Source of the DNA: Planobispora longispora
GTDB lineage: Bacteria > Actinomycetota > Actinomycetes > Streptosporangiales > Streptosporangiaceae
Length of the DNA stretch: 64,000 nucleotides
Reading direction: 5' to 3'
Assembly (NCBI RefSeq): GCF_016863135.1
Contig: NZ_BOOH01000052.1
Coordinates: 1 to 64,000, forward strand
Position 1 is the stretch's first letter, and every line of letters starts with the position of its first letter. The notes under the pieces are model-generated. The model did not search any database. It worked only from the letters and a program-made list of their open reading frames with translations, and was not told the origin of the DNA. The position numbers and the translations under genes were made by a program. Shown piece after piece: positions 4,288 to 45,709 of this stretch.

Positions 4288-7233
4288 ATGCCGGCTCACG
4301 GCGTGGTCCAGTCGCCCGTCCTGGTGGGCAGGGACGACATGGTCGCGCTGGCCGGCCGCCGGCTCGCCGGGGCCGCGGACGGGGCCGGCGGGCTGCTGCT
4401 GGTCGCGGGCGAGGCGGGCATCGGCAAGACGCGGCTGCTCGGCGTGATCGCCCGGCGCGCCCGGGCCGGGGGGTTCACGGTGGTACGGGCGGCGGCGTTC
4501 CCCGGCGACGCGCAGTCGTTCGCGGGCCTGCTGCTGGACCTGGCCGCGGAGCTGACCGCCGCCGGCGAGCCCGCGCTGAGCCGGCTCGGCCGCGGCCTGT
4601 CCTCGCGGGCGCGCGCGATCTCCGCCGCCGACGGCGACGCGCACCACCGGCGCCGCCTGCTGGTGCAGGACCTGGCCGACCTGCTCGTCACGGCCGGCTC
4701 GGGCGGTCCGGTGCTGACGATCCTGGAGGACCTGCACTGGGCCGACGACCTGAGCCTCGACGTGCTCGGCCACCTGGCAGGCCGGCTCGCGACCAGGCCG
4801 ATGCTGGTCGCGGGAGCGTACCGCAGCGACGAGTTGTACCCCGGCCTGCCCATGCGCGAGCTGCGCGCCCGCCTGCTGGCCCAGCGGCTCGCCGAGGAGA
4901 TCCGGCTGACGCGCCTGACATCCGTCCAGACCGCGACCATGATCGGCGCGACGCTCGGCCGGCCGCCCCCGGCCTCGCTGGTGGCGGCGGTCCACGACCG
5001 CAGCGACGGCATCCCGCTGCACATCGAGGAACTCCTCGCCGCCGTCGGAGCCGGCGCGCCGACACCGCAGTCCGGCCCGGCGGTGCGGGCGGCCGCGGTG
5101 CCCGACACGCTGGCCGACGCCGTACTGAGCCGTGCGCGGCACCTGGCCGCGCGTACGCGCGCGGTGGCGTCCGCGGCGGCGGTCATCGGCCGCTCCTTCG
5201 ACTTCGACCTGCTGACCGCCGTCACCGGAGCGGATCCGGCCGAGGTCGCCGCGGCCCTGCGCGAGTTGCAGGAGGCGTATCTGGTCCTGCCCGGCGCCGA
5301 CGCGGTCACCTTCGACTTCCGGCACGCGTTGATCCGCGACACCCTGTACGCCGACACCGACCTGCCGGCGCGACGCCGCCTGCACGAGAGCGCGGCGCGC
5401 ACCGCCGCGCAGCGCGGCTATCGCGGCGCGTTCGTCTCCGCCCATTTCGAGCAGGCGCAACGCGCCGAGCACGCGTACCGCCACGCGATCATCGCCGCAC
5501 GCGAGGCCGCGGCGATGTCGGCCCACGGCCAGGCGCTCGAACTGTACCGCCGGGCGGTGCGCAACCTGCCCCCCGGCCTCGCGCCGCCGGAGCGGGCCGA
5601 ACTGTTCGCCGCGCTCGGCGACGAGGCCGCGGCCGCCGACGACAACACCGCCGCCGCCGAGGCGTACCGGATCGCCCACGAGGTGGCCGTCGGCGCCGGA
5701 GCCGCGCGCACGGCGGCCGCGCTGGCGCCGCGCATGGTCGCGGTCGCCCACCTGCTCGGTGACGGTCTGGACGCCCGGGTGCGGACGCTGCGCGGCGCGC
5801 TGGACAGCCTGGACGGGGTGATCGGCGCGGATCTGGAGCGGGCCAGGCTGCGCTCGGCGATGGCCGCCGCGTACATGCTGGACCGGCGCCTCGACGAGGC
5901 GATCGACCACGCCGAGCGCGGTCGCGCGGAAAGCCTCCGGATCGGCGACGAGGAGGCCGTCCTGAACGCCGACGCGACGCTCGGATCGGTCCTGGTCTTC
6001 GCCGGACGGATGGATCAGGGCTGGCCGCTGCTCGAAGGCGCGATCGCCCGCGCCCGCGGCACGCATCAGGAAGCGGAGGCGGCGCGCGGGTACCGCATGA
6101 TCGGGTCATGCGCGTCGGTGCTGGTGGAGTACGGCCGCGCCGAGGACTGGCTCACCGAGGGCATCCGGTACGCCGAGAGGGTCGAGCTGTGGAACCACCG
6201 GCACTACATGGCCTCGCACCTCGCGCACGTCCAGTGGGCCGTCGGCGACTGGCAGACGGCCGGACGGACCGCGCGGCACGCCCTGGCCGACGGGCGGGGC
6301 GGGGTCACCACCCGGATCACCGCGCGGTACGTCCTGGGCTACCTGGCCCTGGGGCGCGGTGACTGGGAAGCCGCCGCCGGCCTGCTGGGGGAGGCGCTGG
6401 CCGAGGGGGAGCGGATGGCCGAGCTGCAGCGGTTGTCGCCCCCGCTGTGGGGACTGGCCGAAGCCGCCCGGCTGCGGGGCGACCACGACGCCGCGCTCGT
6501 CCTCTGCGAGCGGGGCCGCCACGCCTCGGCCGACGTCGCCGACGCCGCCTACCTGTTCCCGTACCTGCTCACCGGCGTGCGGGCCCATCTGGCGCGCGGC
6601 GACGCCGACGCCGCCCACGCCTGGTCGGAGCGGGCCGGCGCGCTGATCGAGGCCCGGGCCATCCCCGGCACGCTGCCCGCGATCGGCCACGCGCGCGGAC
6701 TCGTCCTCCTCGCCCGCGGGGACGCGTCCGCCGCCCGGTCGGCGCTGGAGCCGGCGGCCGAGTCCTGGCGGGCCGCGCGCCGGTTCTGGGAGGGCGCGTG
6801 GGCGTTGCTGGACCTGGCGGAGGTCGCCGCCGCGACCGGCCGCCACGCCGAGGCGGGCCGGTTCCTCGACCGGGTCCGCGCCGGTGCGGCGAGGATCGGC
6901 GCCGTCCCCCTCGCCGACGCCGCCGATCGTCTGGCCGGCCGTCTCCCCGATGCCGCCGATCGCCCGGCGGGCGCTTCCGGCCGCCCCGCCGGACCGTCCG
7001 GCCGCGACCGGCCGCGAGCTCCCTGGCACCCGCTCAGCGCACGCGAATTCGAGGTCGCGCAGCTCGTCGCGGGCGGCCTCACCAACCGGCAGATCGCCGA
7101 ACGGCTCGTGCTCTCACCCAAGACGATCTCCGCGCACATCGAGCACATCCTCGCCAAACTGGGGGCGGCCCGCCGTACCGAGATCGCCGCCTGGTGTGCG
7201 ACGATCCGCCGGGACCCGCCACCGGAGCGATGA
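4288..7233 (+). CDS. LAL-type LuxR transcriptional regulator with AAA ATPase
   Basis: A 981-residue large ATP-binding LuxR-type regulator. It begins with VGRDDMVALAGR; the Walker A GEAGIGKT is near residue 45 and the Walker B LTILEDLHWADD near residue 145. The middle has TPR-like helical repeats, and a C-terminal LuxR HTH lies near residues 920-975 (LSAREFEVAQLVAGGLTNRQIA then LVLSPKTISAHI). The chosen ATG has GGAAGGA eight bases upstream; the frame is open further 5' but without ribosome site or conserved sequence. Family members activate secondary-metabolism or sugar-use genes in response to ATP and an unknown ligand. Its TGA overlaps a possible ATG of the next gene, so the pair may be co-transcribed. 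Confidence 0.9.
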   Translation: MPAHGVVQSPVLVGRDDMVALAGRRLAGAADGAGGLLLVAGEAGIGKTRLLGVIARRARAGGFTVVRAAAFPGDAQSFAGLLLDLAAELTAAGEPALSRLGRGLSSRARAISAADGDAHHRRRLLVQDLADLLVTAGSGGPVLTILEDLHWADDLSLDVLGHLAGRLATRPMLVAGAYRSDELYPGLPMRELRARLLAQRLAEEIRLTRLTSVQTATMIGATLGRPPPASLVAAVHDRSDGIPLHIEELLAAVGAGAPTPQSGPAVRAAAVPDTLADAVLSRARHLAARTRAVASAAAVIGRSFDFDLLTAVTGADPAEVAAALRELQEAYLVLPGADAVTFDFRHALIRDTLYADTDLPARRRLHESAARTAAQRGYRGAFVSAHFEQAQRAEHAYRHAIIAAREAAAMSAHGQALELYRRAVRNLPPGLAPPERAELFAALGDEAAAADDNTAAAEAYRIAHEVAVGAGAARTAAALAPRMVAVAHLLGDGLDARVRTLRGALDSLDGVIGADLERARLRSAMAAAYMLDRRLDEAIDHAERGRAESLRIGDEEAVLNADATLGSVLVFAGRMDQGWPLLEGAIARARGTHQEAEAARGYRMIGSCASVLVEYGRAEDWLTEGIRYAERVELWNHRHYMASHLAHVQWAVGDWQTAGRTARHALADGRGGVTTRITARYVLGYLALGRGDWEAAAGLLGEALAEGERMAELQRLSPPLWGLAEAARLRGDHDAALVLCERGRHASADVADAAYLFPYLLTGVRAHLARGDADAAHAWSERAGALIEARAIPGTLPAIGHARGLVLLARGDASAARSALEPAAESWRAARRFWEGAWALLDLAEVAAATGRHAEAGRFLDRVRAGAARIGAVPLADAADRLAGRLPDAADRPAGASGRPAGPSGRDRPRAPWHPLSAREFEVAQLVAGGLTNRQIAERLVLSPKTISAHIEHILAKLGAARRTEIAAWCATIRRDPPPER

Positions 7234-40404: not shown

Positions 40405-41025
40405 TTACAGTGGCTTGAGGGCCAGGCCGGTCCCGGTCAGGCAACCGTCGATCAGATGCGGCCGGTACTGGATCTTCTTCAGTCCTCGCTTGACCACTCG
40501 CACCAGCTCATCCAGGCCGGTCGCCGCGAGGTTGGCCAGCCCGCCGCGATTCAGCAGCGACCAGACGCCCTCTGTCGGGTTGAGATCGGGCGCATACGCC
40601 GGAAGGTGGACGACTCGCAGCCAGTCGGCGCTCTCGGCGACGAACTCCCGCATCTCCGCGCAGGTGTGCCGATTCAGGTTGTCCCAGATCAGCACGATCG
40701 GCGCACCGAGTTGCCGGTGGGCCAGGAGGACCAGGTCGCGGTAGTCGGCCCAGGTGAAGCTCGCCTTCTCATCCTTGCGCCGCCGATAGACGTGCACCCG
40801 ATACAGCAGCCGGGATCGGTGTCCGGGCCGGTAACAGGTCAGAGCGGCCACCGAGATCCGGCCCGCGCGCCGTCCCGGCACGTGCACCACCGGCGTGACC
40901 CCGCGCGGGGCCCAGGTACGGGCCACCGGCGCTCTCAGCGTCCGGCCGCACTCGTCTTCGAAGCAGACCCAGGCATCCAGGTCCGCCGCGGCCTTTCCAC
41001 GGCCGGCCACACCTCCGTCTTCCAC
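40405..41025 (-). CDS. IS630 transposase, downstream frame (DDE part)
   Basis: The catalytic part: FEDECGRTLRAPVARTWAP (first acidic residues), LIWDNLNRHTCAEMREF (second Asp) and VVHLPAYAPDLNPTEGVWSLL (LNPxE motif with the last Glu). These are the DDE positions of IS630-type transposases. All are intact. It starts within the upstream frame and is probably made as a fusion by frameshifting. Confidence 0.85.
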   Translation of the reverse strand: MEDGGVAGRGKAAADLDAWVCFEDECGRTLRAPVARTWAPRGVTPVVHVPGRRAGRISVAALTCYRPGHRSRLLYRVHVYRRRKDEKASFTWADYRDLVLLAHRQLGAPIVLIWDNLNRHTCAEMREFVAESADWLRVVHLPAYAPDLNPTEGVWSLLNRGGLANLAATGLDELVRVVKRGLKKIQYRPHLIDGCLTGTGLALKPL

Positions 41026-41474
41026 ACCACGATCGCGCTCTCATCGCGCTCGATGGCCCGGCGCGCCGGCACCTGACACGACCAGCCGTGCCGCCGCAGC
41101 AGCTTCCACACCCCGGGCAGGGAGTAGCTCAGGTGGAACATCCGGCCGATCACCTTCCGGATGCGGGCCAGGGTCCAGTACTGGTCGTTCCAGCCGTGCG
41201 CGGCCGGGCCACGCAGCAGCGCGGCCTCCAGCCGGGCGAACCGCGCCTCATCCAGCACCGGCAGCGAGGCCGGGCCCTTGGAGGCCAGCGCCGCATCCCC
41301 GCCGCAGGCCCAGGCGCGGCGCCAGCGGTTGGCCGACATCCGGCTGACCCGCAGTTCCTTGGCCACCTGGGCATCGCTGTAGTCACGGGCGAACAGTTCG
41401 GCCGCGCGCAGCTGTACCTGTTCGCGCTTGGCTCGTTGCGCGGCGGTCAGTCCGCCGCCTTGCGCGTACCGCAT
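40935..41474 (-). CDS. IS630 transposase, upstream frame (HTH part)
   Basis: The N-terminal part of the transposase: RAAELFARDYSDAQVAKELRV (helix-turn-helix), VSRMSANRWRRAW, then WNDQYWTLARIRKVIGRMF and LPGVWKLLRRHGWS. ATG 41474 is used here; a GTG seven codons upstream is possible. It overlaps the downstream frame by about 90 bases (40935-41025), where a programmed frameshift typical of IS630 would join the two. Without frameshifting it would lack the catalytic domain. Confidence 0.8.
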   Translation of the reverse strand: MRYAQGGGLTAAQRAKREQVQLRAAELFARDYSDAQVAKELRVSRMSANRWRRAWACGGDAALASKGPASLPVLDEARFARLEAALLRGPAAHGWNDQYWTLARIRKVIGRMFHLSYSLPGVWKLLRRHGWSCQVPARRAIERDESAIVVWKTEVWPAVERPRRTWMPGSASKTSAAGR

Positions 41475-41648
41475 GCTCTGGGCGTACCACGACAACCCGA
41501 CGTGGCCACATGATCGCTTAACATCACAAATTAAAGATCAGTGAACCGGGGAGATTCAGGAGGCCGAGGCGTTCTCGGCTGATGAGACAGTCGCGGCCCC
41601 GTGGCGGGCTGGCGGTCTAAGGGTGTTTCATGCTGCCTGATCCTGGAT

Positions 41649-41802
41649 TTAGGTGCCGCGCCAGGTGGGGGTGGATTCGCCGGTGAGGCGGCGGCTCATG
41701 AGGTCGATCATGGCGATGTGAATCATGGCTTCGGAGCGGTCGGGACGGGCTTCGTAGTCGCGGACCAGACGGCGATGGAGCATTAGCCGGCCGAGGGTGC
41801 GT
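41649..41802 (-). pseudogene. 3' fragment of an IS5-type transposase
   Basis: The minus strand reads ERTLGRLMLHRRLVRDYEAR, then MIHIAMIDLMSRRLTGEST and TWRGT followed by stop at 41649. This is the C terminus of an IS5-family transposase. It ends at the TC core (41803-41804) of the nested serine-recombinase element. The matching upstream part, ending RRWVAE, is at 44139-44290. Confidence 0.8.
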
Positions 41803-41969
41803 TCCATCGCTCAAGCACACTGCACCTATGGATGGTCAGGAAAGGCAGCAAGGGCCGATAATCGGGCGTGAAGGGCTGCGGCGGCTGGCTGCGGTAGTCG
41901 AGCGGCTCCGGGCCCGTGAGGAGGAGAAGTCCTCATGCAACAGGAACGTGACGTCGGCCCCAGAGCAGA

Positions 41970-42101
41970 GTGCAAACGACGCTGAGCGCCCAGGTATGGG
42001 CGAGCTTGCCGGAGGCGAACCGGCGGGTGGTAGTGCAGCAGTTGACGAGACTGGCCGCTGGCGCGATGAGCGCGAAGGCCGGTGAGTGGAGCCGGCCATG
42101 A
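41970..42101 (+). CDS. Small protein coupled to the nested recombinase
   Basis: A 43-codon frame from GTG 41970 that reads VWASLPEANRRVVVQQLTRLAA. The W-x2-LP-x5-R-x3-V-x3-L-x-RL pattern resembles short proteins seen upstream of IS-like recombinases, from general recollection. Its stop overlaps ATG 42098 of the recombinase as ATGA. A frame at 41828-42085 on the same strand overlaps it but has low-complexity composition. Confidence 0.5.
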   Translation: MQTTLSAQVWASLPEANRRVVVQQLTRLAAGAMSAKAGEWSRP

Positions 42102-44115
42102 CCGCGCTACTGCCCTGGCACAAGGTCACCGGCAAGGTGAGCGATCGGCATCTGCACCGCCTGGCGGTGGTGTATATCCGGCAGTCGACGCGGCAGCAGC
42201 TGACCAATCACCCCGAATCGACCCGGGTGCAGTACGCGCTGGTGGAGCGGGCCATCGCGCTGGGATGGGCGGCGGAGCGGATCCTGGTCATCGATGATGA
42301 CTTGGGAATGTCGGCGACCAGTGCGGTGGCGCGGCGGGGGTTTCAGCGGCTGGTCACCGAGATCGGCCTGGATCACGTCGGGCTCGTCTTGGGCGTTGAG
42401 ATGTCCCGGCTGGCCCGTTCGGGCAAGGACTGGTACCAGCTCATTGAGCTGTGCGCGCTGTCGGGCGCGGTGCTGGCCGACCTGGACGGCATCTATGACC
42501 CGGGCGACTATAACGACCGGCTGCTGCTCGGGCTCAAGGGCACCATGAGCGAGGCCGAGCTGCACCTGATCAAACAGCGGATGTGGAGTGGCCGGATCAA
42601 CAAGGCCCGGCGCGGTGCGCTGTCCTTCCCGCTGCCCAGCTGGGCATCCGGTTGCGGGAGGGGCCGGACAAAGGCACGCTGGAGTGGCGCAGGCCGAACC
42701 GGATGACGCTGCAGACGCTGTTGCACAATCCTGCCTACGCCGGGATCTATGCCTATGGCCGTCGCCGGGTCGACCCACGCCGCCAAGATCCCGCCCGACC
42801 TGCTACCGGCCGGGTCGTCCGAGGCAGGGATGAGTGGCTGGTGATGATCCCTGATGCGCTGCCCGCCTACATCACGGTGGCCCAGTTCGAGGCCAACGAG
42901 GCGAAACTCGCCGCCAACCGGGCCTGCGCCGAGGCCATGGGCGCGGTTCGGAGTGGGCCCGCGCTGGCCGCCGGGGTGGTCTTTTGCGGACGCTGTCAGC
43001 GCCGCATGATCGTGCGCTACCACAGCCGGCACAGCAAGGCGCGGCCCGAGTACGTGTGCTGCCGGGAGGTCACCAACTACGGGGCGGCCACGGCCTGCCA
43101 GCTGCTGAACGCGGCCTGCGTGGACGCCTTCGTCGAAGCGCAGGTGCTGGCCGCGCTCGCCCCCGCGGCCGTGGAGGTCTCGCTGCGGGCGGCCGACCAG
43201 GTCATGGCCGAGCGGGCCGAGTTGGACACGCTGTGGTCGCAGAGGCTGGAGCGGGCCCAATACGAAGCCGACCGGGCACGGCGCCGCCACCATCTGGCCG
43301 AACCCGAAAACCGGCTGGTGGTCCGCCAACTGGAAAAAGAGTGGGAGAGCGCTCTGACTCACCAGCAGAAACTCCGCGAGGAACACGCCCGCTTCATCCG
43401 CACCAGCCCGCGGCTGCTGTCTGCGGCCGAGCGACAGAGCCTCACCGCGCTGGCCGGCGATATCAACGGCCTATGGCACGCGGCAACGACCACGATCACC
43501 GACCGCAAGGAGATCGTCCGCGCGGTCATCGACAAGGTCGTTGTCGCGGTAATCGGAACCAGTGAACGCGTGCAGGTGACCATCGTCTGGGCGGGCGGCG
43601 CTACCACCTGCGGCGAGATCGTCCGTCCGGTGCAGCGGTTGGAGCAGCTGTCTTGCTATTCCCAGTTGCTCAGTCGGATCCGGGAGCTGGCAGGCCAGGG
43701 CATCGGCGCCAGTGGGATCGCCGACCGCTTGGAAGCCGAGGGCTATCGGCCGGCCAAGAGCGGCAAGCGGATCACCGCGACCACCGTCCGTGATCTCATG
43801 CGCCGTCTTGGCTGCCCCGCAGGCCGGGTTCATCGCCACCGCCCCGCACCTGCCGGCGAAGAGCCCGGTCCGCAGGAGTGGTGGCTCAAAGACCTGGCCG
43901 CCGAGCTGTGCATGACCACCTCGACCCTTTACGCCTGGATCAACCGGGGATGGATCACGGTGCGGAGGGAGAGCGACTGGCCGCATCGACTCATCGCCCA
44001 TGCCGACCAGCAAGAACTCGCTGAACTGCGGGAGCGCCGGACTCGTCCGCCCGGCTGGTACAGCCGCCGCCTCTGGACCGGAAACCACAGCCCGCCGGCC
44101 AAACCGAATCCATGA
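42098..44115 (+). pseudogene. Large serine recombinase, inactivated by internal deletion and frameshift
   Basis: The resolvase domain is intact: VVYIRQSTRQQ with the nucleophilic Ser, then GVEMSRLARSGKDW and GTMSEAELHLIKQRM. The frame breaks near 42630-42645, where SFPLP jumps to QLGIRLREGPDKGTLEWRR in the next frame; roughly 40 to 50 codons usual in this family are absent. The rest (recombinase domain with LLHNPAYAGIYAYG, zinc ribbon CGRCQRRM...YVCC, coiled coil, C-terminal HTH-like parts) is open to 44115. The junction lies in the palindrome TGCCCAGCTGGGCA. The element is probably fixed in place. Confidence 0.85.
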
Positions 44116-44138
44116 GTGCAGTGTGCTTGACACGTCTC

Positions 44139-44290
44139 GGCCACCCAGCGCCGGGGCAGCGGGGTGAATCCCCTGGTGGCAGGATCGCGGCGGACGATGT
44201 CGATGCTGAGGCTGGCGCCGCACACCTCCGGGCACTTGGTCGTACTCGGAGCATCACGCGGTGGCCGTCTCGCGTCGAGAACCACCCGCC
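44139..44290 (-). pseudogene. Internal fragment of the same IS5-type transposase
   Basis: The minus strand reads LSIDIVRRDPATRGFTPLPRRWVAE up to the TC core at 44137-44138 (shown here in parts: LSIDIVRRDPATRG and FTPLPRRWVAE). The continuation ERTLGRL is at 41.8 kb. Sequence upstream of about 44250 no longer matches an IS5 transposase, so the 5' end had been lost already. Confidence 0.75.
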
Positions 44291-44329
44291 ACCGGGTTAA
44301 AAGCAAAGTTTAGTGGGGGCGAGCGCGAG

Positions 44330-44880
44330 TCCGGCCCCGCCGGGGATGTACTGGAGGGTCTGGCGGATGCTCAGGGGGCCGTCTGTCAGGTCCACATCCG
44401 TCTAGCGCAGGTCGAGAAGTTCGCCGCGGTGCATGCCGGTGCGCAGGGCCAGCATGACCAGGGCGTGCAGCCGGGAGCTGCGGGCGGCTTCCAGCAGGTG
44501 GCGGGCTTCGGCGGAGGTGAGGGGGCGATGCGCTGACGGCGTCCGGCACTGACCTGGACGTTGCGGGCGACATTACGCGGGAGGTCGTCTTCTCGTACGG
44601 CTTGCTGGAGCGCCGAGCGGAGCAGGGCGTGCAGGTAGACGATGGTCAGTGGGTACAGGTACTGGCGGTAGCAGTGGTCGAGGGCGCAATGGGGCCGGTT
44701 CCGCTCGTCGGCGCCGTTGGGGTCGCGAGCAGCGCCGATGCCTTGGACGCACTAATGGCAGGTAGTGCGGAGCCGTTCGAGCCAGAGGCGGATGTTCTTG
44801 GCGGTGAGCCGGTTGAGCTTCTTGGTGCCGGAGTGGGGATCAGATAGAGCCGTACGCAGGTGCGGAGCGGGCCACGGAGG
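44330..44880 (-). pseudogene. Decayed tyrosine integrase (XerC/pSAM2-Int-like)
   Basis: Pieces in several minus-strand frames match a tyrosine recombinase. They are SGTKKLNRLTAKNIRLWLERL (core-binding domain), LYPLTIVYLHALLRSALQQA with LPRNVARNVQV, and LTSAEARHLLEAARSSRLHALV then ALRTGMHRGELLDLR, the box I Arg region, followed by an in-frame stop. There are at least two frameshifts and stops, and the box II catalytic part is missing. It is a relic of an earlier element next to the same end. Confidence 0.72.
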
Positions 44881-44942
44881 GAGAAGTTCTTTTACCTGCC
44901 TCTGACGTGCGGAAACGGCTGTGTTGATGCTCCGATGAACGT

Positions 44943-44990
44943 GGTGTTGTTTAAAGCTTTCTACCCTGGAGGCGTTCAAGTCGTGGTTCT
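44943..44990 (+). other. attR of the 24-kb element
   Basis: The element arm GGTGTTGTTTAAAGCTTTC-TAC at 44943-44964, one base, the CT core at 44966-44967, and then PL8 coding sequence GGAGGCGTTCAAG. Together with attL this gives attP as arm-C-CT-C-arm, and attB as PL8 sequence across CT. Confidence 0.85.
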
Positions 44991-45709
44991 TCCTCGACGA
45001 CGCGGTGCTCTGCCTGGGGGCCGGGATCACCGCGGAGGACGGCGTGCCGGTCGAGACCGTCGTGGACAACCGCAGGACCGGCGCGCCCCTCACCGTGGAC
45101 GCCGCGGCGGGCTGGGCCCATCTGGAGGGGCACGGCGGGTACGTCCTGCTCGGCGGCGGCCCCCTGCGCTCGCTGCGCGAGGAGCGCACCGGGAGGGAAC
45201 GCCCCGGCCGTCCGGCGGAGGCGACCCGGAGCTACGCGACCCTCTGGCTCGATCACGGCGTCGATCCCGTCGACGCGGGCTACGCCTACCTCCTCCTGCC
45301 GAACGCGAGCCTGGCCGGGACCCGGGCCCGCGCCGCCGCCGTCGGCCGGGCGGGCGTGCTCGCCAACACCGCCGGGCAGCAGGGCGTCCGGATCCCGTCG
45401 CTCGGGATCACCGCCGTCAACTTCTGGATCGGCGGAGCCGCCGGCGGGCTGACCGCCTCCGGCCCGTGCTCGGTTCTCATCCGGGAGTACGGGGACGGCA
45501 CGGCCACGCTGACCGTCTCCGACCCCCGGCGTGATCTGGAGGAGCTGACCGTCGCCTGGGACCGGCCGGTGACCGGGGTGCTCCGGGGGCACCGGCTGCT
45601 CAGGAGCGCCACGACCGGTGAGGGGCTCATTCTCGCCTTCGGGCGGCTGGCGGATCGGGGCGGCGCCTCCCAGACGGTCACCGTACGGCTCCGGCGGGAG
45701 ACGCCGTAG
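44966..45709 (+). pseudogene. 3' part of the family 8 polysaccharide lyase
   Basis: The PL8 beta-sandwich half, beginning at the CT core: LEAFKSWFFLDDAVLCLGAGI, then VETVVDNRR, WAHLEGHGGYVLL, the calcium/beta region SYATLWLDHGVDPVDAGYAYLLLPN, and a C-terminal domain to residue 774 of the restored protein. Read alone it lacks a start; GTG 45005 is in frame but would give a fragment without the catalytic toroid. Excision of the element would join it to codon 528 of the 5' part in frame. Confidence 0.92.

Follow-up and report, generated by a model that had tools for sequence, protein, structure and literature searches.

Among the described mobile elements, those moved by large serine recombinases (LSRs), such as Tn5397 with TndX and Tn4451 with TnpX, are most similar to an element found in Planobispora longispora at positions 41803-44138 of a window of 64,000 nucleotides (the whole stretch of DNA that was analysed), in which an LSR and one short open reading frame (ORF) are inserted into the transposase gene of an IS5-family insertion sequence (IS). 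The target sites of Tn5397 possess a central GA dinucleotide, and TndX prefers DNA encoding a conserved Fic domain (PMC4430133); in the present element the GA core lies on the coding strand of the transposase, as in the targets of Tn5397. In contrast to Tn5397, which is 21 kb long and carries other genes (PMC4430133), this element contains only the LSR and the short ORF, and its target is the codon of a Glu in a DDE transposase; the comparison with TnpX and TndX is one of descriptions, not of sequences. IS607 is likewise an IS with a serine recombinase, for which a proposed circular intermediate, a 2-bp overlap, a reversed domain order and little target specificity are reported (PMC4058570), together with the lack of a target site duplication (PMC6188088). 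Whereas IS607 has its DNA-binding domain first and no terminal inverted repeats, the LSR found here is catalytic-first with a zinc ribbon, and the element has terminal arms and a strict target. Serine integrases of A118/LI-type phages combine recombinase and zinc-ribbon domains with a pseudo-palindromic attP around a central dinucleotide (PMC3783163); unlike those phages, the present element is without phage genes, and its attB is a transposase gene. The group II intron RmInt1, whose natural target is ISRm2011-2 of the IS630 family and which blocks the spread of this IS (PMC5894124), equally is a mobile element targeting an IS, but it is an RNA retroelement and not dependent on a DNA recombinase. 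Site-specific and multi-targeting LSRs are both described in a survey in whose accessible part transposase genes are not named as a target class (PMC10083194), and searches of the open literature (without subscription journals, preprints and ISfinder) yielded no description of LSR insertion sequences that target other ISs.

Read from its sequence, the window element is very probably a dead copy of an IS-sized LSR element that entered, by attP x attB recombination at a TC/GA core, the codon of the catalytic Glu of an IS5-family DDE transposase. The bounded element measures 2334 bp within 41803-44138 and is organized as follows.

41652..41804, minus strand: 3' part of the IS5-family transposase gene (ERTLGRLMLHRRLVRDYEARPDRSEAMIHIAMIDLMSRRLTGESTPTWRGT, then stop); when the two flanks are joined the open frame runs through without a break, the same layout being found in 10 other IS5 copies
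41803..41804, no strand: left TC crossover dinucleotide (reverse complement of the GA of the catalytic Glu codon), as the junction is read
41805..41810, plus strand: left spacer CATCGC; with the same six-base spacing the arms of relatives fall into register
41811..41825, plus strand: left arm TCAAGCACACTGCAC, an inverted repeat common to relatives
41828..42085, plus strand: short ORF of 85 amino acids with N-terminal PIIGREGL; no Pfam match at E 0.1
42086..42706, plus strand: 5' ORF of the LSR with the resolvase catalytic domain and Tyr-x-Arg-x-Ser (PF00239, E 3.6e-20); follows the LSR frame as far as about 42635 and is out of frame from there on
42583..44115, plus strand: 3' ORF of the LSR with recombinase domain (PF07508, E 5.4e-12), zinc ribbon (PF13408, E 1.1e-7) and C-terminal part
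44116..44130, minus strand: right arm (reverse complement of TCAAGCACACTGCAC), an inverted repeat common to relatives
44131..44136, plus strand: right spacer CACGTC, as the junction is read
44137..44138, no strand: right TC crossover dinucleotide, as the junction is read
44139..44309, minus strand: upstream part of the IS5-family transposase gene, an open frame of 57 amino acids ending PLPRRWVA; the host IS is a truncated remnant

The arms (41811-41825, TCAAGCACACTGCAC; 44116-44130, GTGCAGTGTGCTTGA) are exact inverted copies of 15 bases, six bases from a TC dinucleotide on either side, as an earlier note on this DNA had described them. When the two end regions of 150 nt were resampled 3000 times (first-order), no trial reached 15 bases, the longest exact inverted match being 14; ungapped extension lengthens the inverted repeat to 23 nt at 91%. 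When the flanks are joined over one TC, an uninterrupted IS5-type frame, PLPRRWVA-E-RTLGRLM, is obtained on the minus strand, which bears out the restored VAERT of the same note. The host gene itself is a short remnant (open frames of 57 and 51 amino acids), and both the element and its right flank are present as single copies in this genome.

The claim of the earlier note that the element carries only a recombinase and one coupled short gene stood as far as the presence of both is concerned; the recombinase, however, is broken, and support for the short ORF as a gene is partial. Compared with the LSR of a related element from Streptomyces sp. YIM 121038 (L019), that of the window copy is without 145 nt, and residues 1-158 and 194-696 of the L019 LSR match the window in two separate segments (tblastn). 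This deletion with its breakpoint near 42635 is out of frame, and the LSR is therefore interrupted, split over two frames; the catalytic motif and the zinc-ribbon match are retained, and helix-turn-helix matches in the C-terminal part are weak and below the cut-off.

Relatives were obtained by a scan of genome contigs, which gave 14 loci with L004-L016 as the relatives, and from a plasmid collection with 465 matching records, 20 of which were used. At E <= 1e-60, 8 of 394 genomes drawn from the class of P. longispora and 6 of 297 drawn from its order matched, the own genome being counted in both. In total 49 distinct places are considered (the window, L004-L016, L018-L020, L022, L039-L063 and L068-L075, minus the duplicates L012, identical to L049, and L051, identical to L050); they comprise 20 copies with both junctions, 14 with one junction, 7 in istB and 8 others. 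Excluded from the counts are L017 (35% identity over 50 residues), L001-L003, L021 and L064-L067 (the window itself, a short chance match and probe hits) and L023-L038 (shorter stretches of places fetched again), and additional LSR fragments in L019 (9620-10945), L059, L060 and L068 are not counted as places. L053 is possibly the other end of L052 or L054, such that the one-junction copies may represent 13 events instead of 14. In several divergent loci an automatic search for ends by inverted repeats gave chance matches a high rank, and for these loci the ends were taken instead from the reading frames of the interrupted transposases.

Other copies with the same arms and intact recombinases, for both of which the earlier note had proposed a search, exist. 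Arms at both ends (with at most 3 mismatches) are found in the window and in eight Streptomyces relatives (L004-L008, L010, L018, L019), and arms at both ends also in L047; at the same threshold L009, L011, L013, L014, L016 and L020 exhibit them at one end only, and in 19 copies the arms match at 12-18 of 20 positions. Concerning the recombinase, 15 of the 20 two-junction copies possess a full-length LSR frame with the catalytic motif. The domain order PF00239, PF07508, PF13408 of the window pieces recurs, catalytic domain first, in 5 of 5 scanned relatives, and a YVRQS motif is aligned in most LSR rows, being absent from truncated or frame-disturbed ones such as L007 and L050. An NCBIfam scan of three LSRs found no model at cut-off (best XisF, 70-82 of 375 bits). 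The deposited start of the L019 recombinase (4422-6515) is an internal GTG, the open frame being 27 codons longer upstream. Group II intron maturase genes are situated near two of the elements (L020, 8259-9521; L075, 5425-6684).

The crossover core is the GA, that is, the first two bases, of a Glu codon in all 20 two-junction copies (19 of 19 tabulated and the oppositely oriented L040), and in these copies the joined flanks form an open transposase frame. Their hosts are IS5 in 11 cases, IS701 in 3 (including L040), IS4 or IS4-like in 4, and IS1380 and IS630 in one each; left and right cores are identical in 19 of 20, the exception being L010 with TG on the left and TC on the right. All 14 one-junction copies (L011, L013, L014, L016, L041, L043, L046, L050, L052, L053, L054, L056, L059, L071) agree with this placement, L071 less exactly, with the left end of its element not independently fixed. 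The target preference for IS5 transposase genes, which the earlier note had suggested checking, is real; it is not confined to IS5, and it is sharper than proposed, being directed at the GA of the catalytic-Glu codon.

The Glu of the RW/HWxxE motif in IS5, IS701 and ISAs1 is taken by us, from its position and from what is generally known of these families, to be the catalytic one, and the corresponding assignments for IS630 (NPxE) and IS1380 are presumed. After rejoining, L022 (YAHRWTLERFHQDGK), L048 (YHQRWEAETGFDQLK), L049 (YHERWEIETAYLEVK) and L055 (YRLRWRIETLFSALK) fit exactly to the YREK signature, whose Glu is the DDE Glu. By NCBIfam, 10 of 10 right-flank pieces were assigned to IS5, IS701, IS4, IS1380, IS630 or ISAs1 (L055 and L042 below the curated cut-off), each match reaching the cut end of the flank piece or stopping at most 1 residue short of it; Pfam detected DDE or IS4/5 domains in 7 of 10 pieces and none in L022, L050 and L055. 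Most IS5 copies, L022, L040, L043, L046, L056, L059, L071 and the one-junction IS630 hosts were named by eye from motif and frame. Genome G326 holds three related LSR elements (L039, L040, L041) in IS1380, IS701 and IS630 genes, one family each. In genome G440 the element L050 lies in an ISAs1-like gene and has apparently lost its left end to another IS (ISAzo13-like by eye); this region occurs twice in the genome with shared flanks and was counted once.

Such a concentration on one codon might also arise if a low-specificity, multi-targeting LSR were seen only where its insertions survive, in dispensable genes such as those of transposases. Multi-targeting LSRs are indeed known, their clade including a TndX-like subfamily (PMC10083194), but one dinucleotide of one codon is used in 34 of 34 resolved DDE-targeting copies. 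A matrix built from 10 IS5-type sites finds no site on either strand of the 64-kb window. In 519,670 fetched bases, five sites reach the weakest true score (14.3, L018); two of them are junction sequences of copies already counted, and the best by far is an intact IS5 gene in L063 (LPRRWVVERTFG, score 41.6). Target specificity alone can thus explain the choice of the codon, and on the strength of the matrix scan low specificity is disfavoured and considered very unlikely.

Even more improbable is that the element is what remains of an LSR-integrated prophage, integrative conjugative element or plasmid after internal deletion had removed the cargo. It is in elements of this kind that LSRs are best known, and the window copy does carry a deletion; the 20 two-junction copies, however, are 2.33-2.58 kb long, with one of 3.0 kb, 15 of them with a full-length LSR, which leaves little room for cargo, and this size is constant across Actinomycetota, Cyanobacteriota and Alphaproteobacteria. 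It was for the size constancy of the relatives that this origin was rejected. Small elements that carry little beyond their own mobility are what is called an IS, and 2.33-3.0 kb with an LSR and a short ORF correspond to this.

Insertions are found in different hosts. Among the 45 pairs of 10 IS5-type copies, DNA identity of the elements is 76.6-94.5%, as opposed to 29.2-63.3% for the target proteins over a stretch of 90 residues; in the pair L007 and L018 the values are 94.5% and 37.1%. In genome G480, 2516 bp of identical element sequence up to the core are found on two contigs and run into different IS630 genes, which are about 70% alike by blastn (36% when compared ungapped); the genome holds three places with two distinct IS630 right flanks, multiple copies as they are typical of an IS. 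The least probable explanation of all, a composite of host IS and LSR element that was moved or inherited as one, its shared insertion point reflecting common descent, could account for close LSRs lying all in IS5 genes and for target labels clustering on the LSR tree, but was rejected because element identity is far above host-transposase identity in the same pairs, and in addition the same codon is struck in six DDE families (G326 having relatives in IS1380, IS701 and IS630) and L040, L046 and L071 are oriented opposite to their targets.

For 3 of 3 joined flanks queried, uninterrupted homologues exist. For the joined L020 flank, NZ_CP108679.1 (annotated as IS701 family transposase) gives a single unbroken match of 602/602 nt with 86.9% identity; that of L019 is matched through the junction at 83-86% in annotated IS5 transposases, and for that of L058 identity is about 70%, with a coverage of no more than 77%. 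The target is precisely restored, and nothing but the 2-bp core is duplicated. The view of the earlier note that the element behaves as an IS using an LSR is supported by these homologues and by relatives that possess the same ends and diverge less than their host transposases. The finding of that note is real and its interpretation right in outline, while the wider pattern is more striking than first claimed.

A sister group of seven rhizobial relatives (L061-L063, L072-L075; about 40% identity) interrupts istB of IS21. With intact istB as query, tblastn halts at [FI]G[DE]P or an equivalent in six loci (L061, L063, L072-L075), L062 having been judged by eye; the boundary is located no more closely than the G[DE]P codons, the core may be a GA in an Asp or Glu codon, and the inverted-repeat search gave no clear long arms in this group. 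In the LSR tree of 31 rows (midpoint root only), the 7 istB rows are set apart by one branch (100/100) from the remaining 24. Sorted into 11 groups, with tentative assignments as groups of their own, the target labels require 12 changes on this tree, compared with a mean of 20.1 after shuffling, where none of 200 trials was as low. They are clustered, though three families need more than one change (IS5 2, IS4 2, IS701 3, IS630 1, istB 1).

Concerning the short ORF, all of 10 close IS5-type copies keep PIIGREGL, and in 9 of them the longest frame starts 24 bases into the element. Versions of the motif are found in L020 and L039, and others were recognized by eye in open frames from L022, L042, L052-L054, L040, L043 and L049; the ORF script returned none in L022, L049, L055 and L058 and ORFs in other frames in L042 and L048. 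Differences at the three codon positions number 160/229/289 in the 27 first codons of the short ORF, as compared with 286/177/1055 in 130 codons of the LSR (eight copies). These numbers suggest, weakly, little protein constraint on the short ORF, which as a gene is partly supported; a search of NCBIfam gave no match for it.

Directly beside the element an IS630-type transposase gene is situated on the minus strand (40405-41495), made up of overlapping ORFs with an HTH part (40935-41495) and a DDE_3 part (40405-41025). Beyond the IS5 remnant, at about 44310-45190 on the minus strand, fragments resembling remnants of tyrosine integrases were recognized by eye.

In the proposed mechanism, joining of the ends would yield a near-palindromic attP with TC at its centre, flanked on each side by 6 nt and an arm, presumably within a circular intermediate, and the LSR would recombine it by attP x attB strand exchange with an attB consisting of the DNA coding for [RK]-W-x-x-Glu of an IS5-family transposase, with a 2-bp TC/GA core. 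The insertion would split the host gene after the catalytic Glu, with neither deletion nor duplication beyond the core, and should disable the transposase. Excision may proceed via attL x attR, perhaps aided by the short ORF; the recombinase domain would recognise the target half-site, and the relatives may be active. In sister lineages of this recombinase, other DDE families are entered at the same codon.

On balance we favour, with clearly less confidence than for the window copy, the view that these elements form a phylum-crossing family of LSR insertion sequences specialised as parasites of ISs. They would home to the codon for the catalytic Glu in DDE transposases, where a host IS has hardly any freedom to change. 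By evolving arms that imitate the new target, they would have switched among at least six DDE families (with the istB sister group). They would disable the IS entered and represent a DNA-only counterpart of introns and inteins homing to active-site codons.

The imitation of targets by arms is only suggestive, because the copies are related. The Trp codon of the RWxxE targets, read as CCA on the other strand, is six bases away from the core. At the same distance from the core, CCA or TCA forms the first three bases of both arms in 17 of 19 copies, all but those in IS1380 and IS630. In L055 (Leptolyngbya) the arm matches the target half-site at 11 of 14 bases, and over 19 copies the left arm matches the RW side of its own target at a mean of 6.84 of 14 positions, compared with 6.09 after shuffling (13 of 5000 as high). 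Such a resemblance fits a published model of serine integrases that assumes one and the same binding position for the recombinase domain in attP and attB (PMC3783163).

Several points weigh against the explanation given for the window element and its mechanism. The resemblance of arms and targets is modest and confounded: the left arm is also raised against the other half of the target (72 of 5000), as is the right arm against the RW side (97 of 5000), but not the right arm against the other half (1284 of 5000). Eight of the 49 places lie outside the resolved set (L009, L015, L045, L068, L069, L044, L060, L070), among them L009 with a degenerate left junction in an IS5 gene, L068 (Azospirillum), whose element ends at 4932-4958 beside an IS66 TnpB-like frame (..WDGSGLV, by eye), possibly a further target class, and L069 with an IS1380-like gene beside it, by eye. 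With its own bases the left flank of L010 reads Gln instead of Glu, and in right-only copies only the GA of the codon is target DNA. The seven istB copies interrupt a helper gene and not a DDE gene. The window copy is, as read, predicted to be inactive; no directionality factor was identified, and such a role of the short ORF would be a guess. What the sequences themselves show is the ends with their core, the target, the presence of the element in different hosts, the homologues of the target that are uninterrupted, and the broken recombinase; movement and function, including circle formation, excision and transposition, are deduced from comparison, not from experiment.

LSRs are known for the conserved chromosomal targets they choose and for their use in genome engineering. 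Natural target switches among genes that share little except the code for their active site would make the evolution of LSR specificity readable from nature and testable by setting attP arms against target half-sites. For the insertion sequences themselves, a brake is predicted: such a hyperparasite would strike DDE transposases at their catalytic residue and so inactivate them, and precise excision could restore them.
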